Shown in pieces: positions 6,008 through 34,251 of a stretch of 34,251 nt of DNA. Below the pieces are notes generated by a model. The model ran no database searches. It saw nothing but the letters and a program-made list of their open reading frames with translations, and was not told the DNA's origin. Position numbers and translations under genes: made by a program. The stretch is from a virus, in IMG/VR virus record IMGVR_UViG_3300047297_000061, positions 1-34,251 of that record; one strand, written 5' to 3'. The number at the start of each line of letters is the position of its first letter. Position 1 is the first letter of the stretch.

Positions 6008-6485
6008 TACTAATATATAGGGAAATAATGAATGTTTGCAAAATAGTAATATAGTTATAATTTGCATGAATTTTACATTAAAACCTATGCAATAGTTAAT
6101 AAATTGGCAATATATGTCCGAATTAGTGTTAGATATTTATCTAATTATGTAACATAGTTAGGATTAATTCGGTAGTAATACTACCCTGATAGCAAAAAAT
6201 GTAAACTCTGCAAGTTTTGATAGTGTTCACTGCCTGTGAACAATGGTAATAAGTGAACATATTATTTACTCAATGGAGTGAGTAATTTTACTCAAAGTAA
6301 AATAGTAAAGCTATTATTTTACTTTATCAATCAAAAGGTAAATATATAACTTGACAAATGAGCCGTAAATGATTGATAAACGGCTCAATATTGATTGATA
6401 AATGCACATCATAAAGTGCACTTAATGACTCATATTGCCATCATTAGTGTCAAATAAGACACATTATGGTGGATATATATAACAC
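6008..6485. other. Hairpin-rich non-coding region with iteron-like repeats
   Basis: Nearly 480 bp without a convincing gene, the largest such gap besides 27792-28121. It contains at least six inverted repeats: TGTTCAC/GTGAACA (6224-6242), TTACTCA/TGAGTAA (6266-6285), TTTTAC/GTAAAA (6286-6302), a 10-bp AAAGTAAAAT stem (6294-6325), TGAGCCGT/ACGGCTCA (6359-6387), TGCAC/GTGCA (6403-6420) and GTGTC/GACAC (6447-6462). GATTGATAAA occurs directly at 6371 and 6393 (22-bp pitch) and inverted at 6323-6332. This could be a replication origin, a packaging site, or a regulatory leader for the portal unit. Confidence 0.7.
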
Positions 6486-6516
6486 AAAAACCCCCACCTA
6501 GAATACTAGGCAGGGG
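6486..6516 (-). terminator. Rho-independent terminator after the tail tube gene
   Basis: Read on the minus strand, a GC-rich stem of CCCC and CCTAG pairing with CTAGG and GGGG has a 4-nt loop (TATT) and is followed directly by five T. It lies 25 nt past the stop of the probable tail tube gene, so it should end the capsid/tail-tube transcript. Confidence 0.85.
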
Positions 6517-6540
6517 AACTAACTATGAAAAACTACAAAC

Positions 6541-7059
6541 CTAACCTGCAGTTGTAAGAGCAGCAGCGACTGTACTATTTACTTCAGCACACAAACTAGG
6601 TTCAGCACCTGTAAATGTTAAAGTATATCCGCTTCTGTCTCCTTCAGCAGTACCTGTTGCGGCACTACCTGCGGTTAAATCTATTGCCCTTGTTTTACCT
6701 ACATACCAAAACTTACCATTGTTGTCTTTAGCAACTGCTACAAGTCTATTTTGTGCTAATAAAAGAATTTCATTTCTTGTATTCGCTTGTAACTTATTTA
6801 AAATTATTGTCAATTCAGGGGTAAAAAATAAAGTACCATTTTGAACATTTGATGCTACATTCTCTGTAAGCATTGAAGTTCCTTTGGTTAACTCATATTT
6901 ATAAAACCTCTTACCTGCTGCTTTAGTTAGTGCAGTTATTACACCACTTACTTCAGTAGTAGAAGTTACATCTGAACTTGCAATAAAATAAACTTCCGTA
7001 ATTCCGCCTAAAGAATCACGACAATCTAGGGTATATCCCTGTGTTAATGCACACGCCAT
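6541..7059 (-). CDS. Probable major tail tube protein
   Basis: A 172-residue protein starting MACALTQGYTLDCRDS. It is rich in Thr, Ala and Gly, beta-strand-like throughout, and has GDRSGYTLTFTGAEP near the end, which resembles tail tube proteins of Bacteroidota phages. It follows the major capsid gene and is fenced by terminators on both sides, as expected for a product needed in many copies. The family assignment is from recall, not search. A head decoration protein is the main alternative, since position next to the capsid gene would suit that too. Confidence 0.6.
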   Translation of the reverse strand: MACALTQGYTLDCRDSLGGITEVYFIASSDVTSTTEVSGVITALTKAAGKRFYKYELTKGTSMLTENVASNVQNGTLFFTPELTIILNKLQANTRNEILLLAQNRLVAVAKDNNGKFWYVGKTRAIDLTAGSAATGTAEGDRSGYTLTFTGAEPSLCAEVNSTVAAALTTAG

Positions 7060-16428: not shown

Positions 16429-16545
16429 TTAAATATTTTGTAGGTATGCAGTTATTAAGAATGCTACAACTAATATTATTACTGCTTCTATGTTATGTTT
16501 GTTTTTGATACAGCGAAGATATATAAACTTATATACTACTTCCAA
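16429..16545 (-). CDS. Possible small membrane peptide (38 residues, TTG start)
   Basis: The frame from TTG at 16545 (or 16557) reads MEVVYKFIYLRC and ends in a hydrophobic helix (AVIILVVAFLITAYLQNI). The TTG sits inside the predicted -7 box at 16543-16550, so that start could not be used from this promoter. Either it is read from upstream transcription or it is not a gene. The hydrophobic helix is the only support. Confidence 0.25.
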   Translation of the reverse strand: MEVVYKFIYLRCIKNKHNIEAVIILVVAFLITAYLQNI

Positions 16546-16606
16546 ACATATTCCCAACTATTTTTAAACTTTGTGATGAACGGTAATTATCAAGGACAAA
16601 CGGTAA
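16543..16606 (-). promoter_or_regulatory. Predicted virion-operon promoter with paired CGGTAA sites
   Basis: On the minus strand TATGTTTG (16550-16543) matches the TANNTTTG -7 box of Bacteroidota. No TTG is seen at the usual -33 distance. Instead, two ACGGTAA elements begin at plus positions 16580 and 16600, exactly 20 bp apart, overlapping the end of the terminase gene. The same element occurs in the master regulatory region near 27.9 kb. This suggests a promoter that needs a phage activator bound around -40 and -60. Confidence 0.55.
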
Positions 16607-16607
16607 A

Positions 16608-17759
16608 TTACATAAAAGTATACCTGCCATTGCCCCTTTTGATGCTGAAGTTATTCCACGCTAAAGCCAATGCCATTACGCAGTCATCGTGAAATCCACT
16701 AGGGGCAGAATACTTAACCCCATTTGCAGTGAACTGATATTCAAACACTTGCAGTTCGTTTGTTATTGCTCCTTCAGGGAATCCAATTCTACCCTGTTGT
16801 ATTGCAGTTGCAAGACCTTCCATAAGTTGCTGCTTACTTGAACTCGTAAACTTTAAACCTTCAATGGCTATACCTTCCCTTTGTAAATCTTCTAGGATAG
16901 GGTCACCTACACCTGTACTATCTACTAATATAGGACATCTAGGCAGCCTTTTAATATTCTCTTTGGTGTTATGCCAATCCATTTGATACCTGTCAAAATA
17001 AGCCACGTTACCCCCATTATCTAATCCTATGATTACTGTATGGTCAACTGACTTTGCAAGGTCAATACCAAATGCAACTATTTGTTGGTTGCTAATAGGT
17101 TTTATACAATCCTGAATGAATTTGTTCCCAAATGGGTTAGCACTATTCTCGCTAGGGTTTGCCATATATTCCTGCTCAAATACTACATTTGGCAGTTGCA
17201 TTCTTGCTTCATCTATTTCCTGTGGGTCAATGAAAGGATTATCATAGCTAGTAAACTTAAACGATGCCCAATCATTTTCACCTGCCTTCATAAACAGGCT
17301 ATAGAAATAATTCTTACCTCTAGGTGTAGAAAGGAATATTGCCTTCCCTTTGTAATCTGTCAGGGTTGGTCTAATACTATTCTGCCATCCTGATTCAAGT
17401 TCAGGGATAAATGATGCTTCATCTATGATAACTAAATGAAATTTTCTACCCCTTAAATTATCTAATCGTTCCCCTGTGAAGAATTCAATCTGTCCGCCAT
17501 TGGGAAAATCTATTTTAAGGTCTGACTTGTTTTTAGGCAATTCTAGGGACTCTGTTAGCTTACTGAAGAAAACCTTTGCCAACCCATAAGTAGGGGTAAT
17601 ATAAGCCACTGAATAGCCTTTAACCGCATATGTGACTGAAAGTATCTGTGACAGTTCTGACTTACCAAATCTTCTGCCGCACATCACCACTCTAAAACGC
17701 TTGTCGCATTCTAATATCTTCTGTTGATTTGCGTGTGGGTTAGGTAAGAATATTTGCAT
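16608..17759 (-). CDS. terL: Terminase large subunit
   Basis: The motor that translocates DNA into the prohead and cuts it. Its 383 residues include a Walker A-like site near the start (VMCGRRFGKSE), Walker B (HLVIIDEASF), a coupling motif (IFLSTPRGKN), and a C-terminal RNase H-like nuclease with acidic motifs FGIDLAKSVDHT, ILVDSTGVGD and HDDCVMALALA. It is on the short side for the family, but all motifs are present. It starts 1 nt into the end of the small terminase gene. The first of the paired regulatory repeats for the virion promoter overlaps its 3' end. Confidence 0.95.
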   Translation of the reverse strand: MQIFLPNPHANQQKILECDKRFRVVMCGRRFGKSELSQILSVTYAVKGYSVAYITPTYGLAKVFFSKLTESLELPKNKSDLKIDFPNGGQIEFFTGERLDNLRGRKFHLVIIDEASFIPELESGWQNSIRPTLTDYKGKAIFLSTPRGKNYFYSLFMKAGENDWASFKFTSYDNPFIDPQEIDEARMQLPNVVFEQEYMANPSENSANPFGNKFIQDCIKPISNQQIVAFGIDLAKSVDHTVIIGLDNGGNVAYFDRYQMDWHNTKENIKRLPRCPILVDSTGVGDPILEDLQREGIAIEGLKFTSSSKQQLMEGLATAIQQGRIGFPEGAITNELQVFEYQFTANGVKYSAPSGFHDDCVMALALAWNNFSIKRGNGRYTFM

Positions 17760-18488: not shown

Positions 18489-18733
18489 CCTAGTTTTTGT
18501 TTATGTATCTCTTTTAAAAATTCCATATATTGTTTCTTGTCTCCGTATTGTAAATGATGCTCTCTGCATAGTGCCATAAGATTATCTATTGTATCCCCTT
18601 TCTTTGTTCCCCCCATTCCCCTAGCTTCTATGTGATGAATGTCTACTGCCCTTGCACCGCAAGTTTCACAAGGTATAAAATCCTCACCTGTGTAACCAAA
18701 ATGGTTCAGATATACTTTAGTATGATTTTTAAT
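18485..18733 (-). CDS. HNH endonuclease of the packaging cassette (probable ATT start)
   Basis: The frame reads KNHTKVYLNHFGYTGEDFIP, then CETC, DIHHIEARGMGG, NLMALCREHH, an intact HNH site with two zinc-binding Cys pairs. HNH proteins next to terminase genes assist TerL in cutting at cohesive ends in phages such as HK97, so the same role is likely here. There is no ATG, GTG or TTG at the conserved start: the in-frame TAG is followed by GCA and then ATT at 18733, giving 82 residues. ATT overlaps the glycosyltransferase stop, so translation may be coupled. A CTG nine codons in is an alternative. Confidence 0.8.
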   Translation of the reverse strand: MKNHTKVYLNHFGYTGEDFIPCETCGARAVDIHHIEARGMGGTKKGDTIDNLMALCREHHLQYGDKKQYMEFLKEIHKQKLG

Positions 18734-19724
18734 TGCCTATCAGTTTATTATAAATAGCAAATCTTTTATTATTTATAGCCTCAAAGTTAAACTCCCTTTC
18801 ACAGAATTCAAATAATTTCTGTCCGTATTCTATTCTAGCTGCTTCATCAAAAGTTAATAGCTTAATCCATTTATACCAATCAGTTTGATTATTTACATAG
18901 CATACAGGCATATTTTTATAAGGATGCACATTGCTAACTATTGCAGGGTTTTTCTTTGCAGCCGTTTCTAATACTTTTAAATTAGATTTCATTGAACCAA
19001 ACTTATTATCTACTAAAGGAATTAAACTTATATCAGAGTCAGCATAAGCACCCATATACTTTGTAATTTCTGCATAGTCATATATGGTAGGGTTTAACTT
19101 TAATCCGTTTGTAAATACTCCTATCATTCTATCCCATAGATGTTTCTCCCCTAAATTATATCCTGCAATAACTGTTCTTATAGGAAAATTTATCTTCTTC
19201 ATTGGGAATCGTAATATATCTAAATCAGGAACGTGAGTGCCTGACCCACTCCAAAATAATCTAACCATATCCGATTCAATCTTATTATCCATAAACTGCT
19301 CTTTACCATAAGGTAAGGCATTAGGTAGTATTTCTACATTAGAATTATATATAGATATTTCTTCTGCTAACCTTTCGTGTGTGCAGGTGCATAGGTCTGC
19401 AATCCTAATAAAATCCGTTATCCTTTGAGTAACATCACTATCCCTATATCTATCAGCTAGAACGTGTGAAGGTGGCAATATCCAATAGTCATCATTATCT
19501 ACTACCAATTTAAAGTTATATTTCTTTCGCATATCCTCAAGCATTGATATTTCTGTAAATGCTAGGAATCTATTAAATATTACTATGTCATAGTTATTAT
19601 CAAATACTGCTTCGTTTATTGTATCTGTAATTAAACAATAATCTTTCTGCATATTAACTAAAGGCATCATTATTCTATGATAACCTACACCACTAAACTT
19701 GCTAGTAATAGCTAATATTCTCAT
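18729..19724 (-). CDS. GT-B fold glycosyltransferase
   Basis: A 331-residue enzyme that would transfer a sugar from a nucleotide donor. It begins MRILAITSKFSGVGYHRIMM, a Rossmann start with a Gly-rich loop, has LVVDNDDYWILPP and CTCTHERLAE in the first domain, and VRLFWSGSGTHVPDL plus SDISLIPLVDNKFGSMKSNL KVLETAAKKNPAIVS in the second. The last motif matches the donor-binding part of group 1 glycosyltransferases. Possible targets are virion proteins, phage DNA or the host surface. Its stop overlaps the HNH frame. Confidence 0.8.
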   Translation of the reverse strand: MRILAITSKFSGVGYHRIMMPLVNMQKDYCLITDTINEAVFDNNYDIVIFNRFLAFTEISMLEDMRKKYNFKLVVDNDDYWILPPSHVLADRYRDSDVTQRITDFIRIADLCTCTHERLAEEISIYNSNVEILPNALPYGKEQFMDNKIESDMVRLFWSGSGTHVPDLDILRFPMKKINFPIRTVIAGYNLGEKHLWDRMIGVFTNGLKLNPTIYDYAEITKYMGAYADSDISLIPLVDNKFGSMKSNLKVLETAAKKNPAIVSNVHPYKNMPVCYVNNQTDWYKWIKLLTFDEAARIEYGQKLFEFCEREFNFEAINNKRFAIYNKLIGN

Positions 19725-19727
19725 AGG

Positions 19728-19961
19728 TTATTTGTTTTGTTTAACTATTAGTTCTTTCATAAATTCAACCCCTGCCTTAAAGTAATGCTTTTTCACGCCA
19801 TAAAATGTTTTTTCAATATACTTATCTATATCCTCATCACTTGGTAGTTCTATTGGATTTAATTGATTAATGATACCGTCATCTTCTAAATCATAAAGGT
19901 AATGATGTTTATCTGCCAATTTTATTGCCTCTCTTACTTGTTCTTCTGTATATAGTTTCAT
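19728..19961 (-). CDS. Small unknown protein (77 residues)
   Basis: An acidic helical protein starting MKLYTEEQVREAIKLADKHH. It resembles small phage proteins of unknown function in Bacteroidota, and its middle IELPSDEDIDKYIEKTF reads like a short conserved helix. It ends VKQNK followed by the repeated leader described under findings. Placed between the fused 149-residue protein and the glycosyltransferase. No function can be read. Confidence 0.65.
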   Translation of the reverse strand: MKLYTEEQVREAIKLADKHHYLYDLEDDGIINQLNPIELPSDEDIDKYIEKTFYGVKKHYFKAGVEFMKELIVKQNK

Positions 19962-19964
19962 AGG

Positions 19965-20414
19965 TTATTTGTTTTGGTTTGTAAGTTTACGAGTTTCTGC
20001 TGCACAAAACTCAAGTAATACTGAAACTACTTTAAGTTTTTCATCTTGAGGTAATCTATTAAAACAATCTTTAATATTTATTACATCTGTCAATTCTCCA
20101 TCAATAGTAGTTGCAAAAATGCTAGTAGATGGAAATAAATCGTGAGCATTCATTTTAATTGGTTGACTTAAAGTACCTGTTCCTGTTAATTGTTCTTTCA
20201 TTGTTTTTTTGTTTTGTTTATAGGTTTTGTTGTAGTATTTTTCTGCCACAAAAAAATTATTATCTTCATCAATTCCAACTTGAAACCCTTGCATTATCTG
20301 CTTTTTTTCTTTTTCAAGTAATCTTTTTTCATTACTTGCAATCCAATTTAATATTGTTAATGGATTATTTTGTGTATCCCAATATTCAAATATTTCTTGT
20401 AAGGCTGTTTTCAT
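19965..20414 (-). CDS. Fused small protein: YYNKTY-family domain plus 78-residue domain
   Basis: The first 71 residues (MKTALQEIFEYW, LLEKEKKQIM, AEKYYNKTY) match the 77-residue gene at 32007-32240 in order and motif. There the protein stops after YYNKTYNN. Here the frame runs on through AAACAAAACAAAAAAACA, which looks like a gene leader, into an internal ATG at 20201 that starts MKEQLTGTGTLSQPIKM and would alone encode 78 residues. So two adjacent genes appear to have merged by loss of a stop or a one-base change in an A run. It may be expressed both as fusion and from the inner start. Function unknown. Confidence 0.7.
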   Translation of the reverse strand: MKTALQEIFEYWDTQNNPLTILNWIASNEKRLLEKEKKQIMQGFQVGIDEDNNFFVAEKYYNKTYKQNKKTMKEQLTGTGTLSQPIKMNAHDLFPSTSIFATTIDGELTDVINIKDCFNRLPQDEKLKVVSVLLEFCAAETRKLTNQNK

Positions 20415-20500
20415 ATTTTGTTTGTTTTTGTTTAATAATGTAAAGTTTATTTAATTTAATTAATTAATAGTAAGTATTAGTACTAAATTTAAAATATTTA

Positions 20501-20588
20501 TAATTAGAATTATATTTCTAATTTGGTTAAATAATTGTTTTTTAATTGGTTTTTTTATAGTAATTAGAATTATATTTCCAATTTGGTT
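20501..20588. repeat. 28-bp direct repeat, 60-bp pitch, each copy a hairpin
   Basis: TAATTAGAATTATATTTC plus AATTTGGTT occurs at 20501-20528 and 20561-20588 with one mismatch. Each copy is also nearly palindromic (TTAGAA/TTCTAA). The second copy encodes the last codons and stop of the 102-residue gene, so the first looks like a partial duplication of that gene end into the 155-bp gap 20415-20569. The rest of the gap is AT-rich without features. Confidence 0.75.
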
Positions 20589-20878
20589 TTTGGATATTGT
20601 GTATAAAATTTTCCCATCCATTTTTCTGATTCAGCCTTGTATTTTTGTTTAGCTTTAAGTAATTGTTGTATAGTCCCTTTTAGGTTTTTTACATACTCAT
20701 CTTGCCTATTAATACGAAGTGATTTATTTTCATCTTCTAATTCTGCTATTTGGCTTTCTAAAATACCAACCTTAACTCCATATTCTTTTAGTTGCCTATG
20801 CAAATCAGCGATTATTTCATCTTGAGAATAAATTCTTTTTACCTGTAATAAAACCTCTCTATCTACATATGTTTTCAT
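20570..20878 (-). CDS. Coiled-coil protein (102 residues)
   Basis: Starts MKTYVDREVLLQVKRIYSQD. Residues 30-85 form a predicted coiled coil with Leu/Ile heptads (LESQIAELEDENKSL, LKGTIQQLLKAKQKYKAESE). The end is basic. No enzyme motif. Such proteins are common in phage accessory regions and their role is unknown. The upstream leader is of the repeated ATAACCTATG type. Confidence 0.65.
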   Translation of the reverse strand: MKTYVDREVLLQVKRIYSQDEIIADLHRQLKEYGVKVGILESQIAELEDENKSLRINRQDEYVKNLKGTIQQLLKAKQKYKAESEKWMGKFYTQYPKTKLEI

Positions 20879-20881
20879 AGG

Positions 20882-21052
20882 TTATTTGTATTGATTTAAT
20901 AATTTTTCATTCTTTTTACTACCACATTTGGTACAAACTAAATAAACCTTTATGACTTTAGAAAAATGTTTACTTAATGTAGTTAGTACTTCTGCTTTAC
21001 AATTAGGACACAAATCTCCTACATTACATTTTTTAGATAATGTTTTGTTCAT
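20882..21052 (-). CDS. Zinc-ribbon protein (56 residues)
   Basis: ATG at 21052 gives MNKTLSKKCNVGDLCPNCKA and, after a spacer, YLVCTKCGSKKNEK. The two CxxC pairs 22 residues apart are a typical zinc ribbon, suggesting nucleic acid or protein binding. It ends LLNQYK, and its last codons form part of the leader for the next gene. It is under 60 residues but has good codon structure and tight spacing (3 nt). Confidence 0.65.
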   Translation of the reverse strand: MNKTLSKKCNVGDLCPNCKAEVLTTLSKHFSKVIKVYLVCTKCGSKKNEKLLNQYK

Positions 21053-21055
21053 AGA

Positions 21056-21238
21056 TTATTTGTTTTTGTTTATTGGATATGTACTTAACCATTGTATGCC
21101 ATATACAGAATCTACGCCATAATCTCCATCATAATCCCATTCATATTTTTCTTTGCAATTAGGACATTCTCCACTTTTATGCTCAATCGCAATAAAATTA
21201 ATATCACAATACAAACAATTTGATTCTATTTCTTTCAT
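21056..21238 (-). CDS. Zinc-ribbon protein (60 residues)
   Basis: Starts MKEIESNCLYCDINFIAIEH and has CLYC and CPNC pairs about 20 residues apart, then an acidic stretch WDYDGDYGVDS. The fold is probably a zinc ribbon like its neighbour downstream, though the two are not obviously related outside the Cys pairs. It ends INKNK, again within the shared leader. Role unknown; binding nucleic acid or host protein is a guess. Confidence 0.65.
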   Translation of the reverse strand: MKEIESNCLYCDINFIAIEHKSGECPNCKEKYEWDYDGDYGVDSVYGIQWLSTYPINKNK

Positions 21239-21241
21239 AGG

Positions 21242-21481
21242 TTATAGTTTTTCTATTTCTTTTTTAACTTCTTGCCAAAAATTAATATCATATGTAATAT
21301 GTTCAGTTAAAAATTCACCTTCTAATGATAGTTTATATGGGTTAGAATTTATTATTTCATCTACTGCTATTAATGCACATTTTTTCCCTCTTTGTTGTCT
21401 AATTATAAAATGGTCTTCATCATGTGTATCTACCATCATATATTTACTAACTAATTCTATTGCTTTATCTTTTTCTGTCAT
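21242..21481 (-). CDS. Small unknown protein (79 residues)
   Basis: Starts MTEKDKAIELVSKYMMVDTH, a short helix common in small phage proteins, followed by a beta stretch CALIAVDEII, and an end FWQEVKKEIEKL. The product is acidic and soluble. No family function is known to me. It sits between the GT2-like gene and the zinc-ribbon genes. Confidence 0.6.
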   Translation of the reverse strand: MTEKDKAIELVSKYMMVDTHDEDHFIIRQQRGKKCALIAVDEIINSNPYKLSLEGEFLTEHITYDINFWQEVKKEIEKL

Positions 21482-21497
21482 AGGTTATTTGTTTTGG

Positions 21498-22085
21498 TTA
21501 TAAAGGAAGGTAATATGTTTTGCTGCCATTTGAATAATTTGCTACATTGCTAGTATGTAATTCCCAAGTACTTTTAACTAAATCATTTTTATTATAACCA
21601 TACGCATCTATTCCATTCTGTTCAATATGAGTAGCATAACCTGTACGAATGTATTTAGTATATAACCCTGCTGCTCTTACTCGTGTGCAATAGTCAAGGT
21701 CAATTGCTCCGTATGGGTCAAGTGCAGTATTGAACGCACCTACATTTTTAATTACCTCTTTAGTTATTGTGAAGTTCCCTATTATATCTGTTGTGTCATC
21801 AAATTGTCCAACTATAGGAAAAGAACAAATACCTATTGTTTTATCCTGCATAAATTCATTCCTACTCTTTAGCCAATTGTCAGGTTCTAATATGTCATTA
21901 GATAAAAATGTTACATATTGAATATCACTTAAATTTATTTTATTTAAACCTATGTTCATAGCTTTTGCTATACCTTTCTCGTTAACTATTATAACTTGTT
22001 CAATATCTGTACCTGCATTAGATAAGTTAATGCCTAATGTTTTAACGCTATTGTTTTGATAATTTAAAAATATTACTGCGTTCAT
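21498..22085 (-). CDS. GT2-like glycosyltransferase (GT-A fold)
   Basis: A 195-residue minimal glycosyltransferase. It starts MNAVIFLNYQNNSVKTL, has VTFLSNDILEPDNWL, where SND stands in the place of the metal-binding DxD, and PYGAIDLDYCTRVRAAGLYT, which matches the catalytic acidic motif with DLDYC of the GT2 family. It is shorter than the usual 230-300, lacking any membrane part. Its start overlaps the acyltransferase stop by 4 nt, so the pair act in one pathway. Target not known; virion or surface glycan modification is inferred. Confidence 0.75.
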   Translation of the reverse strand: MNAVIFLNYQNNSVKTLGINLSNAGTDIEQVIIVNEKGIAKAMNIGLNKINLSDIQYVTFLSNDILEPDNWLKSRNEFMQDKTIGICSFPIVGQFDDTTDIIGNFTITKEVIKNVGAFNTALDPYGAIDLDYCTRVRAAGLYTKYIRTGYATHIEQNGIDAYGYNKNDLVKSTWELHTSNVANYSNGSKTYYLPL

Positions 22086-22606
22086 TTGATTATATTTTGT
22101 CCTAATGATTTAGCAGGTACACCTGCATATTTTGTATATGGTTGTGATTCGCCTTTAAAAAATGCACTTGCTCCTATCATACAACCTACGTGAATATTGC
22201 TATATTGATGTAATACTGCATTCATTCCTATGTTAGATTTTTCACCTACTGTAGAATGTCCACCTATTTTAGCACCTGAACTTATTGTTACATTATTATT
22301 TATTGTGCAATCGTGTGCTATATAAGCGTGTTTCATTATAAAACAATTATCCCCTATATATGTAGCTTGTTCTGTTCCTGCATCTATTGTAACTAATCCT
22401 GTGATTATATTATTATTTCCAATTATAACTCTACCACTAACAACCTCTCTCATTCCATTGTGTTTATTATTTACATTACGTTCATATTTCCAAAACTCTT
22501 TATGTTCTGCAGGGTCTCCTATAATGCAATAAGCACCAATGTAATTGTTATCACCTAGTATAACATTATCACCTATGATTGCCGTTGGATGTATATAATT
22601 AGCCAT
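22082..22606 (-). CDS. Left-handed beta-helix acyltransferase
   Basis: A 174-residue protein of hexapeptide repeats (GDNVILGDNNYIGAY, IGNNNIITG, IGDNCFIMKHAYIAHDC, VTISSGAKIG) with an N-terminal start HPTAIIGDN like that of LpxA. The HAYIAHDC His is the expected catalytic residue. It would acetylate or acylate a sugar on a nucleotide. At 174 residues it is shorter than LpxA, lacking its C-terminal helices. With the two glycosyltransferases it suggests a small sugar-building set. Confidence 0.85.
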   Translation of the reverse strand: MANYIHPTAIIGDNVILGDNNYIGAYCIIGDPAEHKEFWKYERNVNNKHNGMREVVSGRVIIGNNNIITGLVTIDAGTEQATYIGDNCFIMKHAYIAHDCTINNNVTISSGAKIGGHSTVGEKSNIGMNAVLHQYSNIHVGCMIGASAFFKGESQPYTKYAGVPAKSLGQNIIK

Positions 22607-22910: not shown

Positions 22911-23140
22911 ATCTTATGCATTAAAGTTTCAATTATTGCACCTAGAAATCCTGATATAAATACAACACTTGCTATATCTACAACTAATTTAGGTGAGAAA
23001 TAGAGTATGACCCCAACCCACGCAGCCAAACAACTTCCGCAACTGAAAGGCTTGAAGTTGATATGCCATTTACGATGAAGGTTGTGTATTGAATTAAAAA
23101 ATAATGATGTACAGACACTTGTTATAATAATTTGAATCAT
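22901..23140 (-). CDS. Small membrane protein with CxxC (79 residues)
   Basis: Two or three membrane helices: an N-terminal one (IIITSVCTSLFFNSI), one after the motif KPFSCGSCLAAWVGVILYF, and one near the end (VVFISGFLGAIIETL). The SCGSC motif next to a helix resembles a family of small bacterial membrane proteins (DUF1360-like). Function unknown. It overlaps the genes on both sides by a few nt and may pair with the CxxC protein downstream. Confidence 0.65.
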   Translation of the reverse strand: MIQIIITSVCTSLFFNSIHNLHRKWHINFKPFSCGSCLAAWVGVILYFSPKLVVDIASVVFISGFLGAIIETLMHKIWN

Positions 23141-23619
23141 TTGCGAATGTGTTTTTTTAGTTCGGTTTTAGTTTGTTTCAAAGTTCTTATAATTGACATA
23201 TATGGTATTCCTGTCTTTCTGCTTAACTCTTTTGCGTTCTTATTAAACTCAAAAGTATATAGGTTTAATATCTCTTTTTGATACCAATGTAGTTTTTCTA
23301 TTCCGTTCTCCATTACATCTATTACACTATTTTGTTCTGTTTCAGCCTGTTCTTTGTCCTCGTATTCTGTGTAGTTTCTGTATTTTTTCCAAAATTGACT
23401 TCTATCTGACTTAATCATATTTAGCATAGTTCGTACTATGTAGAACCTAATCTCACCTCTTTCATATAATCCAAATAGCTTTTCATCTTCCATTTCTAAC
23501 AATACCATAAACACTTCTACCTTTAAATCATATTGCAATTCTTCAGGTTGCATCTTTGCAAATGCCTGATTTACTTCATCATTAAGCCAATATTGCTCTA
23601 CAATTTTATTTTTGTCCAT
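23137..23619 (-). CDS. Sigma factor-like transcription regulator
   Basis: A 160-residue protein with a sigma-like layout. Residues 25-80 (LKVEVFMVLLEM, IRFYIVRTMLNMIKSDRSQF) resemble region 2, and residues 110-155 (LHWYQKEILNLYTFEFN, AKELSRKTGIPYMSIIRTLK) have the helix-turn-helix of region 4. This suggests an ECF-like sigma or a related switch, perhaps acting on the virion promoter at 16543. Its start overlaps the nuclease gene by 22 nt. The assignment is from pattern and not certain; a region-4-only regulator is the alternative. Confidence 0.6.
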   Translation of the reverse strand: MDKNKIVEQYWLNDEVNQAFAKMQPEELQYDLKVEVFMVLLEMEDEKLFGLYERGEIRFYIVRTMLNMIKSDRSQFWKKYRNYTEYEDKEQAETEQNSVIDVMENGIEKLHWYQKEILNLYTFEFNKNAKELSRKTGIPYMSIIRTLKQTKTELKKHIRK

Positions 23620-25510: not shown

Positions 25511-25936
25511 TTAATTCTGTACAAAGGTATTAAATTTTTTGATTTCATTTTCAATATCATCAATTTTATTTTTATACCATTCTTCAGTTGTAATTAAATC
25601 TTTAGCAGTAGAAACATTGTAAAGTACAGTAGTGTGGTCTTTAACTCCTATGTAAGGAGCAATCTCTTTAAGAGATAATGAAGTGTGTTTCTTTAATACA
25701 TAAGCTGCTGCCTTCCTAGCAAATACAGTATTCTGCATTCTATTCTTTGCAAGTACATCTGTGTCAAAAACATCTTCAACTAATCCAACTAGCTTTTTCA
25801 TTGTTACTCTATTGTTGCTTCTATTCGTGTCATCCTTTTCTATTAGATTATATGCTACTAAAGTGTTCTTTAATTGTCTTAAATTTTTCTTTTGTGCTTC
25901 ATAATAATCTATAATGTTCGCTTCTATTGTTTGCAT
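25511..25936 (-). CDS. DnaA domain IV-like protein
   Basis: A 141-residue protein whose C-terminal half matches DnaA domain IV, the DnaA-box-binding part: FARKAAAYVLKKHTSLSLKE, then IAPYIGVKDHTTVLYNVSTA, where DHTTVLY is the family signature (DHSTVLH in bacterial DnaA). The N-terminal half is helical without an AAA+ module. It may bind DnaA boxes at the phage or host origin, to redirect or block host DnaA. It sits just upstream of the initiator gene. No clear TTATNCACA boxes were seen in the non-coding stretches. Confidence 0.75.
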   Translation of the reverse strand: MQTIEANIIDYYEAQKKNLRQLKNTLVAYNLIEKDDTNRSNNRVTMKKLVGLVEDVFDTDVLAKNRMQNTVFARKAAAYVLKKHTSLSLKEIAPYIGVKDHTTVLYNVSTAKDLITTEEWYKNKIDDIENEIKKFNTFVQN

Positions 25937-26522: not shown

Positions 26523-27068
26523 TTATTTGTTTTGATTTTGGTTAATACTTCTTAATGCCTTTTCGTATTGCTCTAATGTTGTTAAAGCACTAATTTTAAT
26601 TGCTACTTTTTGTTTCATAGTTTCATCCCAACTTGTATTTTCAAGTAAAGTGATTAACTCCATTCTTTTAACTTCACCTACTTCATCTTTATGCTCATTA
26701 GTAGCATCACTATCTTTAGTGTCATCAATAGCAAATAAACCATTGAGTGCATACTTTCGTGCGTAGCTTGAAGCACTACCTGTTATCTGTGCTGCATCCA
26801 TTCCCTTTTTTACTTCTTCTTCTCGTGCCCAACCATTTACAGAAATATGGTCATCTGTTGCATCTAATAGCGTTGCAGTAGCTTTAATGTAGATTCTATC
26901 ACCTACTTGTACTACTTCATCACTTACTATTAATGCAGTTCCATATTTGTTTAATATGGGTTTAACCGCTTCAATGATATCTTCTGCACTTCTGTATTTA
27001 TATTTACCAAATGCGTTTGTTTGGTTTTTTGGTGCTTTTAATTCTGCTTGAATTTTTACTAAATTCAT
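26523..27068 (-). CDS. erf: ERF-family single-strand annealing protein
   Basis: A 181-residue recombinase that anneals complementary single strands. The N-terminal 120 residues have the ERF pattern: ELKAPKNQTNAFGKYKYRSA EDIIEAVKPI, then AQITGSASSYARKYALNGLF AIDD, which is the most conserved part of the family. The end is Lys/Gln rich. In this phage it would repair and perhaps circularise the genome and help recombination-dependent replication. It works with the VRR-NUC nuclease and DUF4373 protein. Confidence 0.9.
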   Translation of the reverse strand: MNLVKIQAELKAPKNQTNAFGKYKYRSAEDIIEAVKPILNKYGTALIVSDEVVQVGDRIYIKATATLLDATDDHISVNGWAREEEVKKGMDAAQITGSASSYARKYALNGLFAIDDTKDSDATNEHKDEVGEVKRMELITLLENTSWDETMKQKVAIKISALTTLEQYEKALRSINQNQNK

Positions 27069-27593: not shown

Positions 27594-27791
27594 TTAATAA
27601 AATAATGATAATAAATTTTTCATTTCTTCTTGGCTACTAATTCTAAATGAACTTTCATTTACTTCGTGATTTGCACCCCATCTTTTTTTAGCTAAACTAA
27701 TAGCTTGTTTTTTAGTTTTACCACCTTGTGTGTTCCAACCACCGCCAATAAAATTGTAAGTGTACTCTTTAATTTTTAATTGTTGTTTCAT
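27594..27791 (-). CDS. First gene of the early operon (65 residues)
   Basis: Starts MKQQLKIKEYTYNFIGGGWN with a strand, and continues GKTKKQAISLAKKRWGANHE VNESSF, which looks like a small alpha/beta fold with a basic helix. The predicted promoter lies about 25-55 bp upstream. The A/C-rich leader AACACAAAAACT precedes the ATG. Function unknown; a host-directed early protein is an inference from position. Confidence 0.6.
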   Translation of the reverse strand: MKQQLKIKEYTYNFIGGGWNTQGGKTKKQAISLAKKRWGANHEVNESSFRISSQEEMKNLLSLFY

Positions 27792-27814
27792 AGTTTTTGT
27801 GTTTGTTTATAAAG

Positions 27815-27846
27815 CAAATCTACAGGCTTTAAACATACTATCCAAA
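27815..27846 (-). promoter_or_regulatory. Early leftward promoter
   Basis: On the minus strand TTTG (27846-27843) and TAGATTTG (27822-27815) are separated by 20 bp, matching the Bacteroidota sigma consensus TTTG and TANNTTTG. The start of transcription would lie near 27808, about 17 nt before the ATG at 27791. It would drive the whole early operon. Confidence 0.75.
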
Positions 27847-27872
27847 TATTATACCCTATTTTTTTAAGAAAT

Positions 27873-28014
27873 ATGATGAACGGTAAATAGAAATGATGAA
27901 CGGTATTTGCCATATATTTTGTCCGATATTTTGTCCGGACAGAAAACAGGACATACTAAAAAATTTAGTATTTACCGCTTATCCTTAAATATTACCGCTT
28001 GTGTAATAAATTTG
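27873..28014. promoter_or_regulatory. Intergenic regulatory array between the two divergent promoters
   Basis: Four nested sets lie here: ATGATGAACGGTA at 27873 and 27893 (20-bp pitch), TTTTGTCCG at 27917 and 27929 with the palindrome TGTCCGGACA at 27932-27941, a hairpin TACTAAA/TTTAGTA at 27954-27970, and TTACCGCTT at 27972 and 27992 (20-bp pitch). The last pair contains the reverse complement of CGGTAA. TAAATTTG at 28007-28014 is a -7 box for the plus-strand gene. The gap 27792-28121 has no gene; its remainder is AT-rich leader. Confidence 0.75.
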
Positions 28015-28121
28015 GATATGTAGTTTATAAGTTGTATATTGTATTATAATTAAGAAATTAATTATGCTCTTTGATATTAACCAAAAACAAGTGAGACACA
28101 CTTAAAACTGTACAACTCAAA

Positions 28122-28352
28122 ATGAGTCAGTATTTTACATTTGTTGAAAAAGCAAACCCAATTGTAAAGTTTAAAAAAGACATTGAAAGTTACAAATACC
28201 CTATATATTATATATGGTTATGTGATGAACAAGGCAATGAATTAAAAGGTGAAAATGGTTATCAGTATTTTTTAGCTACACCTGATGAACTTAAAGGAAT
28301 GAAAAGAAAATACATTGAATTAGGTTATGATGTAGCGGTTTACAATAAGTAA
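28122..28352 (+). CDS. Lone plus-strand gene, unknown (76 residues)
   Basis: The only gene on the plus strand. It encodes MSQYFTFVEKANPIVKFKKD, a beta-rich N-terminus, then YYIWLCDEQGNELKGENG and a helical end (DELKGMKRKYIELGYDVAVY). No helix-turn-helix is evident, so it is not an obvious repressor. It is divergent from the early operon and shares the regulatory array, so it may be an immediate-early host-takeover factor, anti-host protein or control gene. The leader (about 100 nt) contains CTCTTTGATATTAACC. Confidence 0.7.
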   Translation: MSQYFTFVEKANPIVKFKKDIESYKYPIYYIWLCDEQGNELKGENGYQYFLATPDELKGMKRKYIELGYDVAVYNK

Positions 28353-29016: not shown

Positions 29017-29750
29017 TATTTATCAGTTTTTGAGTGCATCTTAAAACACGTTTTACAAATGTATTGAATTTTTTTAACCCCTGATGCGGTTGTTCTTCGT
29101 TGGTTAATTATAAGGTCATCACTACCACATTCAGGGCAGCTACCTTTATCTTGTCCAAAAATTACCCCATAATGTGTTTTAGCAGGTATATGATTGTTTA
29201 ATGCTTTGTGTACCTTTTCTAATAGTACCACATCCTGTATACAATAATCTATCATTGTGTTCATTGCAGTCTTATCATTCTTTAACATTATATCTTTCCA
29301 CAAATCAAAGTTAGTATGGTTCTTTTGACCTAACCCTAAAAACTTACCTATGTAATCAAGCCTATTTGAATTGAATCTAAATTTAGACCTAGCAACTTTT
29401 AAAGTGTCTATTGTATTATAGGTAGGAAACATCTGTATATTGTGAAATAAACATCTCGTTCTAATCCAAGACAAATCAAACTTGTCTCCGTTATGCCCTA
29501 CTAATTCATCTGCCGTATTTGCAACCGCAATAAAATCTTGTAGTAGTTTTTTATCATCTTGTTTCTTATCCCATTGCAAATAGTATACATCCTTGTCATC
29601 TTCCCACTTATAGCAGATACAAATGACTGCTCGTTCCTTAATTATATTTTCTGTACCTATTTGTAATTTGTAACCTGACTGCCAAAATAAACCAATGTTT
29701 GCAGATACTTCAATATCAAAGTATAGCCTTCTCCGTTTTGTTTGTAGCAT
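29016..29750 (-). CDS. DEDDy 3'-5' exonuclease with C-terminal zinc ribbon
   Basis: A 244-residue RNase H-like exonuclease. It has the three motifs in order: RLYFDIEVSA (DxE), ELVGHNGDKFDLSWIR (second D) and IDYCIQDVVLLEKV (YxxxD), so it is of the DEDDy type. The last 45 residues carry CPECGSD and ICKTCFKMHS, a zinc ribbon absent from most relatives. It could proofread, trim DNA ends, or degrade host DNA. It starts 1 nt into the endolysin stop, an odd place for a DNA enzyme. Confidence 0.8.
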   Translation of the reverse strand: MLQTKRRRLYFDIEVSANIGLFWQSGYKLQIGTENIIKERAVICICYKWEDDKDVYYLQWDKKQDDKKLLQDFIAVANTADELVGHNGDKFDLSWIRTRCLFHNIQMFPTYNTIDTLKVARSKFRFNSNRLDYIGKFLGLGQKNHTNFDLWKDIMLKNDKTAMNTMIDYCIQDVVLLEKVHKALNNHIPAKTHYGVIFGQDKGSCPECGSDDLIINQRRTTASGVKKIQYICKTCFKMHSKTDK

Positions 29751-30232
29751 TAAAAATGTTTGTAGTGTGTAGAACCATTTGTTTTATATGCTATTAAAAT
29801 TTCCTTTCTATGCCTATTTGAATAAGAACAATGAACCCAATCAGGGTTTGTCTCATTGCCAAATTCCCAAATTAATTGGTCAAAAGGAAGTTTATCTTTT
29901 ATGTAATGAAATATCTCTGCGTTGGTTACACCATAGTTAGTGCCATCCATATCTATATCTATTGCCTGTCCCAATGAGTGCTGCGAAGTATTAGACCCCC
30001 CTATTTTGGCATTTAATTCTTTTGACCTATAACCACTTGAAATTAAAATAGGACACCTAAAATTGGCTCTAATTGGCTCAAATATGTTTTCAGCTAGTTC
30101 TTTTAAGTTAGCTATATGTTCAGGTGATGGCATATTACTAATGCCATTACGCTTTGCGGATTCACTACGAATAGCCTCTGCTAGTGTAAAATGTTCCGAT
30201 ATTTGCATATTATTTATATTTACATTTATCAA
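29750..30232 (-). CDS. Endolysin, M15 family peptidase
   Basis: A 160-residue zinc peptidase that would cut peptidoglycan stem peptides. It has SEHFTLAEAIRSES, LISSGYRSKELNAKIGGSN, SQHSLGQAIDIDM (SxHxxGxAxD) and PDWVHCSYSN, which supply the His, Asp, His zinc ligands of the M15_3 family. No signal peptide is seen, so a holin is needed, and candidates lie upstream. The start overlaps the GIY-YIG gene by 23 nt. Confidence 0.9.
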   Translation of the reverse strand: MINVNINNMQISEHFTLAEAIRSESAKRNGISNMPSPEHIANLKELAENIFEPIRANFRCPILISSGYRSKELNAKIGGSNTSQHSLGQAIDIDMDGTNYGVTNAEIFHYIKDKLPFDQLIWEFGNETNPDWVHCSYSNRHRKEILIAYKTNGSTHYKHF

Positions 30233-30770
30233 AATGCCATTGTTTCATTGCACCACCACCACCTTCTAATTTGCAATGTGGACATATAAATTTAACTTTT
30301 TTTATACCAATTAATGATAAACTTCTTTTACTTTTTGTTTCTTCAGATTGTATTTTGCCTTTATTATATGCCATATCCCTGCTTCTACTTGCAATACTCA
30401 TTCTATTTCTAGTTTCTTCAGATATTGGTTTTTTATTTTTTTGAGCAATACTCATTTTCTTTTTAGATTCATCAGTAAATTTTAACCCATAAACACCCTC
30501 ACCGCCATCTGTTAAATTAGATAAAATACCTGTTTTTAAATTTTTCCTGCCATATAATTTAATAAATTCCTTTTCCTTATTACAGGCATCATCCCAAGTT
30601 AAATTATCTAATATAATTTCTACTTCAAATGAAGTATTTGAAACTATTTTATTCCATATATTATTTCTTTTTTGAATATAATATGCTCTTTTATAATCAT
30701 TATCTGAACCAATACCTATATAAAATGGTTCATTTTTATCTAACCTTATATGTCTATAAACGTATGGCAT
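30210..30770 (-). CDS. GIY-YIG homing endonuclease with NUMOD3 and zinc finger
   Basis: A 186-residue free-standing homing endonuclease. The N-terminus VYRHIRLDKNEPFYIGIGSD is the GIY-YIG nuclease region (YIG as YIGIG), then the KEKEFIKLYGRKN core and a NUMOD3-type repeat region (GGEGVYGLKFTDESKKKMS, ISEETRNRMSIASRSR), and a C-terminal zinc finger (CPHCKLEGGG, WHFDKC). It sits between spanin and endolysin, overlapping both, and so splits a lysis cassette without disrupting it. It probably cuts related phage genomes that lack it. Confidence 0.9.
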   Translation of the reverse strand: MPYVYRHIRLDKNEPFYIGIGSDNDYKRAYYIQKRNNIWNKIVSNTSFEVEIILDNLTWDDACNKEKEFIKLYGRKNLKTGILSNLTDGGEGVYGLKFTDESKKKMSIAQKNKKPISEETRNRMSIASRSRDMAYNKGKIQSEETKSKRSLSLIGIKKVKFICPHCKLEGGGGAMKQWHFDKCKYK

Positions 30771-32551: not shown

Positions 32552-34251
32552 TTATTTATTTTTTAAAGTTTCTATTTCTAATTTAAGTTCTTGAATTGCC
32601 TTGATTAATACAGGCACTAATTCCGTATATCTAACCCCTAACATTCCATCACCATTTTTATCAATTAGTTCAGGGAATATCTTTTCTACCTCTTGTGCTA
32701 TTAATCCAAGATTTTGTTTGTTAGTCTTGTCATCTTTATAAGAGAAGTTAATAGTTTGTAAAGTAGATAGTTTTTCAACTGCGTTCTCAATATGACTATT
32801 TATATTTTTAAGTCTAATATCCGAGTTTGCAGTCCAAGATGTAGCACCTTGAGTTAAATAAACACCACCTGAATAGTTGGTTATGTAAAGTTTATTTCCT
32901 GTAAATTGATTAATTAAAATCATATCACCTGATGCCGTTCCTGTGATAAACTGATTCGCTGCGGTACAAGCCCCTAAACTACCACCTATTGTTGGTGAAA
33001 GAACTGTATTACTAAAACTAATTGCAGGTGCAGTTCCTGCTGCTTTGATTTGTGTTGCAGCAGTTGTAGAATAAGATACAAGTCTACCACCATCATCTGT
33101 TGTTCCTATTAGTACATTGCCACCGCTTGTAATTCGCATCGCTTCTGCTGCATTGCTTAAATCGAATACAATTGGTGCAGCACTTTCGGAATTAGAAGCT
33201 CTTATTCTTAAATCAAAGGGGCTATCATAATTCTTTCTTATAGATGCATATCTTGCACTTCCCGTACCGCTATCAATTAAATTTAAAGTAGCATACCCGC
33301 TAGAAGTACCATAACCCGCCGTAACACTACTCGAAAACGTGGCTGCACCTGTTGAGGCAATGGTAAATAAAGTAGATGCTGAACTTTGAGCATCATTCCA
33401 CAAACGTAACTGCATGACGTCATTTACCCCACCTGCGGCTATTGCTCTCCATTCATATATTCTACTATTTGCTGTGCCGCCTGTTACTCTAAATCTTACT
33501 GTTGGGTCTGTGTTTTCTATATTAATAGAGCCATTTGCAGCACTTGCTGCTGAATTTGCAGTAATAATTCCACTAAACGTAGCACTTGTAGCAGCAATAG
33601 ACGAGCTAAACGTGGCTGCACCTGTTGAGGCTATTGTAAACTTATCTACTCCTGATATACTAAAATATAATTCAGAGCCACTAATTGCTAATGGTTGATA
33701 ACTTCCATAAAAAGTATTATCCACTCCAAATATTGTAGTCCTTCCACTACTAAATGTGCCATCGTTATCTATTCTTAAACCTCTTGCAGTTCCACCAAAT
33801 GCAGCAGTAGTTCCGTTAGCACCATTATAAGCAGTTAATGAATATGTTGCTGCTGCTCCTCCTACTCCAACTTTGTTACTAAATGTAGCTGCACCTGTAG
33901 AGTCAATAGTTAATCTTGTTCCCCTACTTCCAGCACCTCCAGTTTCAGCTATAAATTGAAAACCTGATACAACTGCACCTGCTGATGATTTGTAAAAGTA
34001 TGCACTACCATCGGTTGGGGTTATTTGATTTGTTGTTGCACCAAATCTACCAACAGCATCAACACTTGAACTAAATGTAGCTGCACCTGTGGAGGCTAAT
34101 TTAAATACTATTGTACTATTTGCATAACTATACCAATTTAATGCAGTATCATTATTAGCAGTATAATTTTCCCATTTATTTGCTCCACCTACTTGAAAAA
34201 ATATACCTGATTCGTTTCCACCTGTACTTGTTGCGTTTAAAGTTAAATAAC
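32552..34251 (-). CDS. Tail fibre / receptor-binding protein, C-terminal part with S74 chaperone domain (continues from position 1)
   Basis: This is the second half of the fibre gene. The stretch from 34251 to 32552 is open in the same frame as the N-terminal part at 1-2585. The GTG at 33724 is only an internal valine codon, not a start. Repeats with TGAATFSS recur (four times from 34.1 to 33.3 kb). The last 100 residues (SDIRLKNINSHIENAVEKLS, KQNLGLIAQEVEKIFPELID) are a Peptidase_S74 intramolecular chaperone, with the Ser and Lys of SDIRLK as the self-cleavage dyad. The domain helps the trimer fold and is then cut off. Confidence 0.9.
   Translation of the reverse strand, partial: YLTLNATSTGGNESGIFFQVGGANKWENYTANNDTALNWYSYANSTIVFKLASTGAATFSSSVDAVGRFGATTNQITPTDGSAYFYKSSAGAVVSGFQFIAETGGAGSRGTRLTIDSTGAATFSNKVGVGGAAATYSLTAYNGANGTTAAFGGTARGLRIDNDGTFSSGRTTIFGVDNTFYGSYQPLAISGSELYFSISGVDKFTIASTGAATFSSSIAATSATFSGIITANSAASAANGSINIENTDPTVRFRVTGGTANSRIYEWRAIAAGGVNDVMQLRLWNDAQSSASTLFTIASTGAATFSSSVTAGYGTSSGYATLNLIDSGTGSARYASIRKNYDSPFDLRIRASNSESAAPIVFDLSNAAEAMRITSGGNVLIGTTDDGGRLVSYSTTAATQIKAAGTAPAISFSNTVLSPTIGGSLGACTAANQFITGTASGDMILINQFTGNKLYITNYSGGVYLTQGATSWTANSDIRLKNINSHIENAVEKLSTLQTINFSYKDDKTNKQNLGLIAQEVEKIFPELIDKNGDGMLGVRYTELVPVLIKAIQELKLEIETLKNK
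33338..33630. repeat. Recurrent repeat inside the fibre gene
   Basis: CGTGGCTGCACCTGTTGAGG is identical at 33338-33357 and 33611-33630. Looser versions lie at about 33886-33905 and 34075-34094. In protein these encode the TGAATFSS-type turns. They could support recombination between fibre modules. Confidence 0.7.
34125..34251. repeat. Direct terminal repeat, right copy
   Basis: Exact copy of bases 1-127; see the left copy. It includes the coding of the fibre protein around the junction. The shared frame between copies is what lets the fibre gene run through. Confidence 0.95.

Follow-up and report, generated by a model that had tools for sequence, protein, structure and literature searches.

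The control region and its genes

The window, by which we mean the whole stretch of viral DNA analysed here (34,251 nucleotides), ends in an identical 127-base direct repeat (1-127 and 34125-34251), which probably stems from circular assembly, and so looks like the complete, circularised genome, about 34.1 kb long, of a Bacteroidota phage. Its leftward operon, with an Erf-like annealing protein and replication genes, and its rightward operon, which opens with a 76-residue reading frame, diverge in the stretch 27791-28122; a terminase large subunit (TerL) gene lies at 16608-17759 (Table 1). No DNA relatives of the window were found in the annotated phage collection, and the relatives described below are metagenome contigs.

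Table 1. Genes, predicted promoters and putative operators of the window
Feature	Position	Strand	Description
Left early LytTR operator (putative)	27876-27904	-	ACCGTTCAT at 27904-27896 (distal) and 27884-27876 (proximal); pitch 20 bp
Right early LytTR operator (putative)	27974-28002	+	ACCGCTTAT at 27974-27982, ACCGCTTGT at 27994-28002; pitch 20 bp
Third LytTR operator (putative), before structural operon	16576-16604	-	ACCGTTTGT and ACCGTTCAT; pitch 20 bp
Left early promoter (predicted)	27815-27846	-	-33 TTTG 27846-27843, N20, -7 TAGATTTG 27822-27815
Right early promoter (predicted)	28011-28042	+	-33 TTTG 28011-28014, N20, -7 TATATTGT 28035-28042 (weak match)
Structural-operon promoter (predicted)	16516-16546	-	-33 TTTG 16546-16543, N19, -7 TATATCTT (weak match)
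Central dyad (putative separate operator)	27920-27953		TGTCC-N7-TGTCCGGACA-N7-GGACA; half-sites at pitch 12 around one dyad
76-aa reading frame, first gene of right operon	28122-28352	+	no family match; homologues only in some relatives
Erf-like ssDNA annealing protein, left operon	26523-27068	-	phrog_155, E 4e-46
Stand-alone DnaA domain IV protein	25511-25936	-	PF08299, E 5e-14; without ATPase part; adjoins Lin1244-type replication initiator
160-aa protein	23137-23619	-	weak ECF sigma-factor similarity, TIGR02937, E 1e-5; common to many relatives
Terminase large subunit	16608-17759	-	phrog_2, E 1e-49

Three repeat pairs, one at each promoter

A preliminary description of this sequence had reported mirror-image pairs of CGGTAA sites facing each other around a central palindrome, and had read them as a symmetric set of binding sites for a phage switch protein or replication initiator. 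The pairs are present, ATGATGAACGGTA at 27873 and 27893 and TTACCGCTT at 27972 and 27992, and both pitches are exactly 20 bp, but the sites do not simply face each other: read toward transcription, each pair is a direct repeat TTACCG...TTACCG (the distal left unit has ATACCG) oriented toward the promoter that it serves; the apparent mirror symmetry is due to the divergence of the two operons here. A third pair, absent from that description, lies directly downstream of the TerL gene, ahead of the structural operon. With one pair to each promoter and a further pair elsewhere, the pairs form neither a mirror-image switch nor an initiator array, and we dropped the former reading; what holds is that the region is a phage control region whose repeats, set on the same face of the helix, are putative binding sites for a regulator.

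The gap between the 9-bp repeats is 11 bp at all three sites, and the pairs at 20 bp are not the product of chance. CGGTAA alone is mildly enriched in the window (10 seen, 5 expected); TACCG-N15-TACCG occurs exactly three times, against 0.003 per simulated window, and ACCGYTYRT-N11-ACCGYTYRT three times, against none in 300 simulations. A reading of the repeats as DnaA boxes, suggested by TTATCC in some of them, was dropped because the CC core is invariant and the TTAT part varies.

A replication initiator and a DnaA domain IV protein are encoded close by, which might suggest that the repeats are iterons of a replication origin, bound by one of these proteins. The sites are pairs and not arrays, however, they stand at three separate places of which one precedes the structural operon, their position is fixed relative to promoters, and searches of distantly related phages with sites did not turn up the initiator gene; we regard this explanation as very improbable.

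Downstream of each pair we predict a promoter of the Bacteroidota sigma-A type, with a -33 TTTG, a spacer of 19-20 nucleotides and a -7 TAnnTTTG, the latter being the known -7 consensus in Flavobacterium (PMC9723704). The left early promoter, whose score of 11.8 is the best possible, lies 29 bp downstream of the proximal 9-mer and is predicted to drive the leftward operon; a reading of TTTG at 27843-27846 as its -7 box was dropped, as this is the -33 element and the -7 box lies 20 bp further on. The right early promoter stands 8 bp from its proximal 9-mer, ahead of the 76-residue reading frame, and the structural-operon promoter 29 bp from its own. The -7 boxes of two of these three promoters are weak, which counts against the explanation that we favour below; relatives with the same structural-operon layout have a perfect -7 box, TATATTTG.

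Recurrence and spacing in viral relatives

The operator pair is found on at least 118 stretches of viral contigs, and an Erf protein 64-98% identical to that of the window is encoded by 80 viral contigs. In these Erf relatives, exact TTACCG direct pairs number 20 at spacing 20, and no other spacing has more than 4; the pairs do recur in related phages, as had been expected of them. When one mismatch is allowed, 41 of 50 whole records match; some of the matches in these 41 are copies of a single sequence that looks coding (TACCGAAGTGCAG...), probably not operators, and most of the others lie upstream of Erf, next to TerL, where most relatives have an operator too, or at one more promoter, ahead of two rightward genes inserted in the head region. 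In one relative (G001; locus L290, 10243-11354, plus strand), a fourth operator would drive these two genes, which run counter to the head genes around them. The window lacks the two genes and has, at roughly the matching position (6067-6541), a gap of 470 bp.

When the divergent region is aligned across nine phages, the repeats are kept and the letters between them drift: the left early operator retains its repeats with a varying spacer, and the right early operator is conserved as well. A clade with Erf about 65% identical lacks the pair at the Erf promoter, which counts against our favoured explanation, and some phages with a comparably distant Erf carry the pair near TerL. In remotely similar phages the pair precedes ERF-like genes and small early genes; there, TAnnTTTG often lies 32-34 bp from the 9-mer, and a distinct -33 box is missing. 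Such carriers are distantly related in the sense of tblastn searches with the window proteins, in which structural genes still show about 21-58% identity, and may share deep ancestry. Two contigs are of a different form: L019 has, at 2594, a run of three repeats with a pitch of 20 bp where two are usual (three are also present in a Saprospiraceae chromosome, L309/L313), and in L067 (63203 bases) operators recur at intervals of about 31.5 kb, which suggests a head-to-tail dimer or two related phages joined.

Among the matches listed, 131 unique viral sites, many of them from related phages and not independent events, are followed by a -33/-7 promoter in 63% of cases, compared with 2.9% when the downstream sequence is shuffled. 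The spacer from pair to -33 in the viral sites listed measures 8-11 bp (n=16), 17-18 bp (n=4) or 27-29 bp (n=62), with none between, and all listed sites with a recognisable promoter lie upstream of the -33 element, at helical steps, and never overlap it. These steps of about whole helical turns are as expected of an activator that faces RNA polymerase from upstream.

Resemblance to LytTR operators

The 9-bp unit ACCGYTYRT fits published LytTR units, and the 11-bp gap falls within the range of 11-13 bp for LytTR repeats, in which 12 bp is usual and 11 or 13 bp the minority (PMC6193735). The unit consensus from 50 sites, WWACCRYTYRTC, in which the terminal C of the first unit is invariant although the search pattern did not require it, contains the core CCGTTCGTC of AlgR sites (PMC4064291); this core is found inside some phage repeats and is one base off most others. 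We conclude that the pairs are very probably operators of the LytTR type (AlgR/AgrA/BrsR), a family of regulators that serves bacteria in sensing. The preliminary description had known of no phage control region of this form; the form itself is familiar from bacterial LytTR promoters. The anatomy is a known one, that of LytTR operators, in an unusual place, the early and structural promoters of phages without a detectable LytTR gene.

Among characterised systems, HdrRM/BrsRM of Streptococcus mutans likewise have two 9-bp direct repeats, 11-13 bp apart, upstream of the -35 element, with LytTR repeats placed 4-11 bp upstream of it and a BrsR site of the form ACCACTTAT-12 bp-ACCGCTTAT (PMC6193735); the BrsRM units resemble those of the phage, part of whose sites share a spacer of about 8-11 bp to the promoter element. 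They differ in that the regulator is encoded in the operon that it controls, whereas the phage has operators only, and the phage repeats are 11 bp apart, with the -33 element often two helical turns further away. AlgZ/AlgR of Pseudomonas aeruginosa shares the core, and in Pseudoalteromonas the pair lies between AlgZR-like and minor pilin genes, but AlgR sites are often single and distant (PMC4064291), whereas the phage sites are strict pairs at promoters. In Staphylococcus aureus, a LytTR dimer of AgrA binds two direct repeats, the proximal one near -60, and activates weak promoters (PMC4227749), although the repeat sequence is another and the gene belongs to the host and not to a phage. Pseudomonas phages with LytTR proteins (PMC11945551) also link phages to LytTR regulation, but they encode the protein, and the present group carries operators only.

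The geometry of the sites makes activation, rather than repression, their likely effect. A host LytTR regulator might instead repress or delay phage transcription and gate infection by the state of the host, as AlgR and AgrA also repress some promoters (PMC4064291, PMC4227749) and the region had earlier been read as a switch. Against this stand the placement of the listed sites with a recognisable promoter, upstream of -33 and clear of it, and the several phage promoters that have a -7 box and no clear -33, like activator-dependent promoters; we consider repression quite unlikely.

Matching sites beside bacterial LytTR genes

A scan of bacterial and archaeal genomes (257 Gb) returned 36 stretches with the pair, about 7 of which are expected by chance, as estimated from the information content of the pattern. 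We located LytTR genes by Pfam model in 18 of these genomes, and the sites described below that adjoin such genes, being partly orthologous, amount to about four independent cases. Two Saprospiraceae (L121, L137) have the pair flanked on both sides by stand-alone LytTR genes. In Pseudoalteromonas (L118, L141) it follows closely on genes for an AlgZR-like kinase and a LytTR regulator and shortly precedes minor pilin genes, and AlgR controls a minor pilin-type operon in P. aeruginosa (PMC4064291). Across Bacteroidota genomes the pair occurs in 11 of 395, only at pitch 20 or 21, and the reversed control in none of 395; in three of those 11 (L271-L273) it stands about 145 bp before an operon of a LytS-type kinase and a REC-LytTR protein. 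L306 has the pair 11 bp after a LytTR gene and before a hydrolase-like gene whose relatives in L308 and L115 also carry it, which makes this hydrolase-like family a candidate host regulon.

Across 299 Flavobacteriaceae genomes the exact operator almost never occurs (7 matches, control 4), and it is only modestly enriched in the order that contains Saprospiraceae (13 genomes, control 2), so that the presumed host regulon did not show up in these genomes. A close relative of TerL was sought in 397 Flavobacteriaceae genomes, and none was found. Both results count against the explanation that we favour.

Candidate regulators in the phages

No regulator gene with a LytTR domain was found in the same phage genome as the operator: PF04397 (LytTR) at E <= 1 had no match in this phage (G000) or in 99 other phage records, a second LytTR profile, run unfiltered on six-frame translations, had none, and hhalign of LytTR against 55 window reading frames had none. 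The operator could nevertheless be bound by a phage-encoded activator that is not recognisable as LytTR. Phage late activators (Alt of TP901-1, RinA/ArpU) are encoded by the phage and use direct repeats upstream of the late promoter. They share with our sites the direct repeats upstream of -35 and the activator logic; viral contigs carry the operator far more often than bacterial genomes do, and the window encodes a weakly ECF-sigma-like protein, a winged-helix protein and a DnaA domain IV protein. None of these candidates resembles LytTR, however, no candidate is common to the carriers examined, early promoters carry sites too, and bacterial sites next to LytTR genes fit the motif. Distantly related phages with the operator yielded no homologues of the HTH_39, sigma-like and initiator proteins, nor of the 76-residue product, and the DnaA-like protein had one weak match in one such phage; a shared phage regulator was dropped as a candidate for want of one common to these distant carriers. 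We judge a phage-encoded activator unlikely. The proposal of the preliminary description, that the HTH_39, DnaA-like, sigma-like or 76-residue protein binds the repeats, is probably wrong, given that the sites match LytTR operators and that distant carriers lack these proteins apart from that one weak DnaA-like match. The 160-residue sigma-like protein had no match in the annotated phage collection.

A probable host regulator at phage promoters

Operator pairs at three promoters, together with the lack of a detectable LytTR protein, lead us to the reading that the phage appears to use the sensory regulator of its host. A host regulator is the simplest reading because no LytTR domain is found in the phage and distant carriers lack the candidate regulators, and we hold its host origin to be probable. 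A dimer of this host-encoded LytTR regulator, probably the response regulator of a LytS-type two-component system, would bind the pair and contact RNA polymerase, and this binding would activate the structural operon together with the rightward early gene and, to the left, the operon for recombination and replication. We think it fairly likely that this account holds as a whole, namely that early and structural genes of the phage are activated through a LytTR response regulator borrowed from the host; the regulator would also carry a signal. More tentatively, and with some doubt, we suggest that several distantly related groups of Bacteroidota phages, which share this operator, may depend on a host LytTR regulator for early and structural transcription, and may read a sensory or density signal of the host with neither a sensor nor a regulator of their own. 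In the literature that we searched, of which coverage was incomplete, we found no report of phage promoters under host LytTR control.

If this is true, infection by a large group of uncultured Bacteroidota phages is coupled to a two-component sensor of the host, which would explain the timing of infection and predicts that hosts lacking the regulator are poor hosts, and the operator would serve as a sequence mark linking phages to hosts with a matching regulator. Few promoters of Bacteroidota phages are understood, and the operator makes one class of them recognisable by pattern search.

The central palindrome and other features

The central palindrome, which the preliminary description had joined to the repeat pairs, is real but separable from them: it is conserved in most relatives with the divergent region and missing in L010, which keeps both LytTR pairs. 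It is unique in the window, is followed by an AT palindrome, TACTAAAAAATTTAGTA, and is best seen as a separate putative operator, possibly for a phage repressor. The CGGTAA sites are direct repeats; the central TGTCCGGACA dyad could be a dyad-symmetric operator of the Cro type, but we recognised no repressor gene.

Elsewhere in the genome, a homing endonuclease gene (30210-30770, minus strand) adjoins an M15 peptidase endolysin gene (29750-30232). Proteins encoded at 18729-22606 resemble, by the look of their sequence alone, glycosyltransferases and a hexapeptide-repeat acyltransferase, and perhaps serve in surface or DNA modification.
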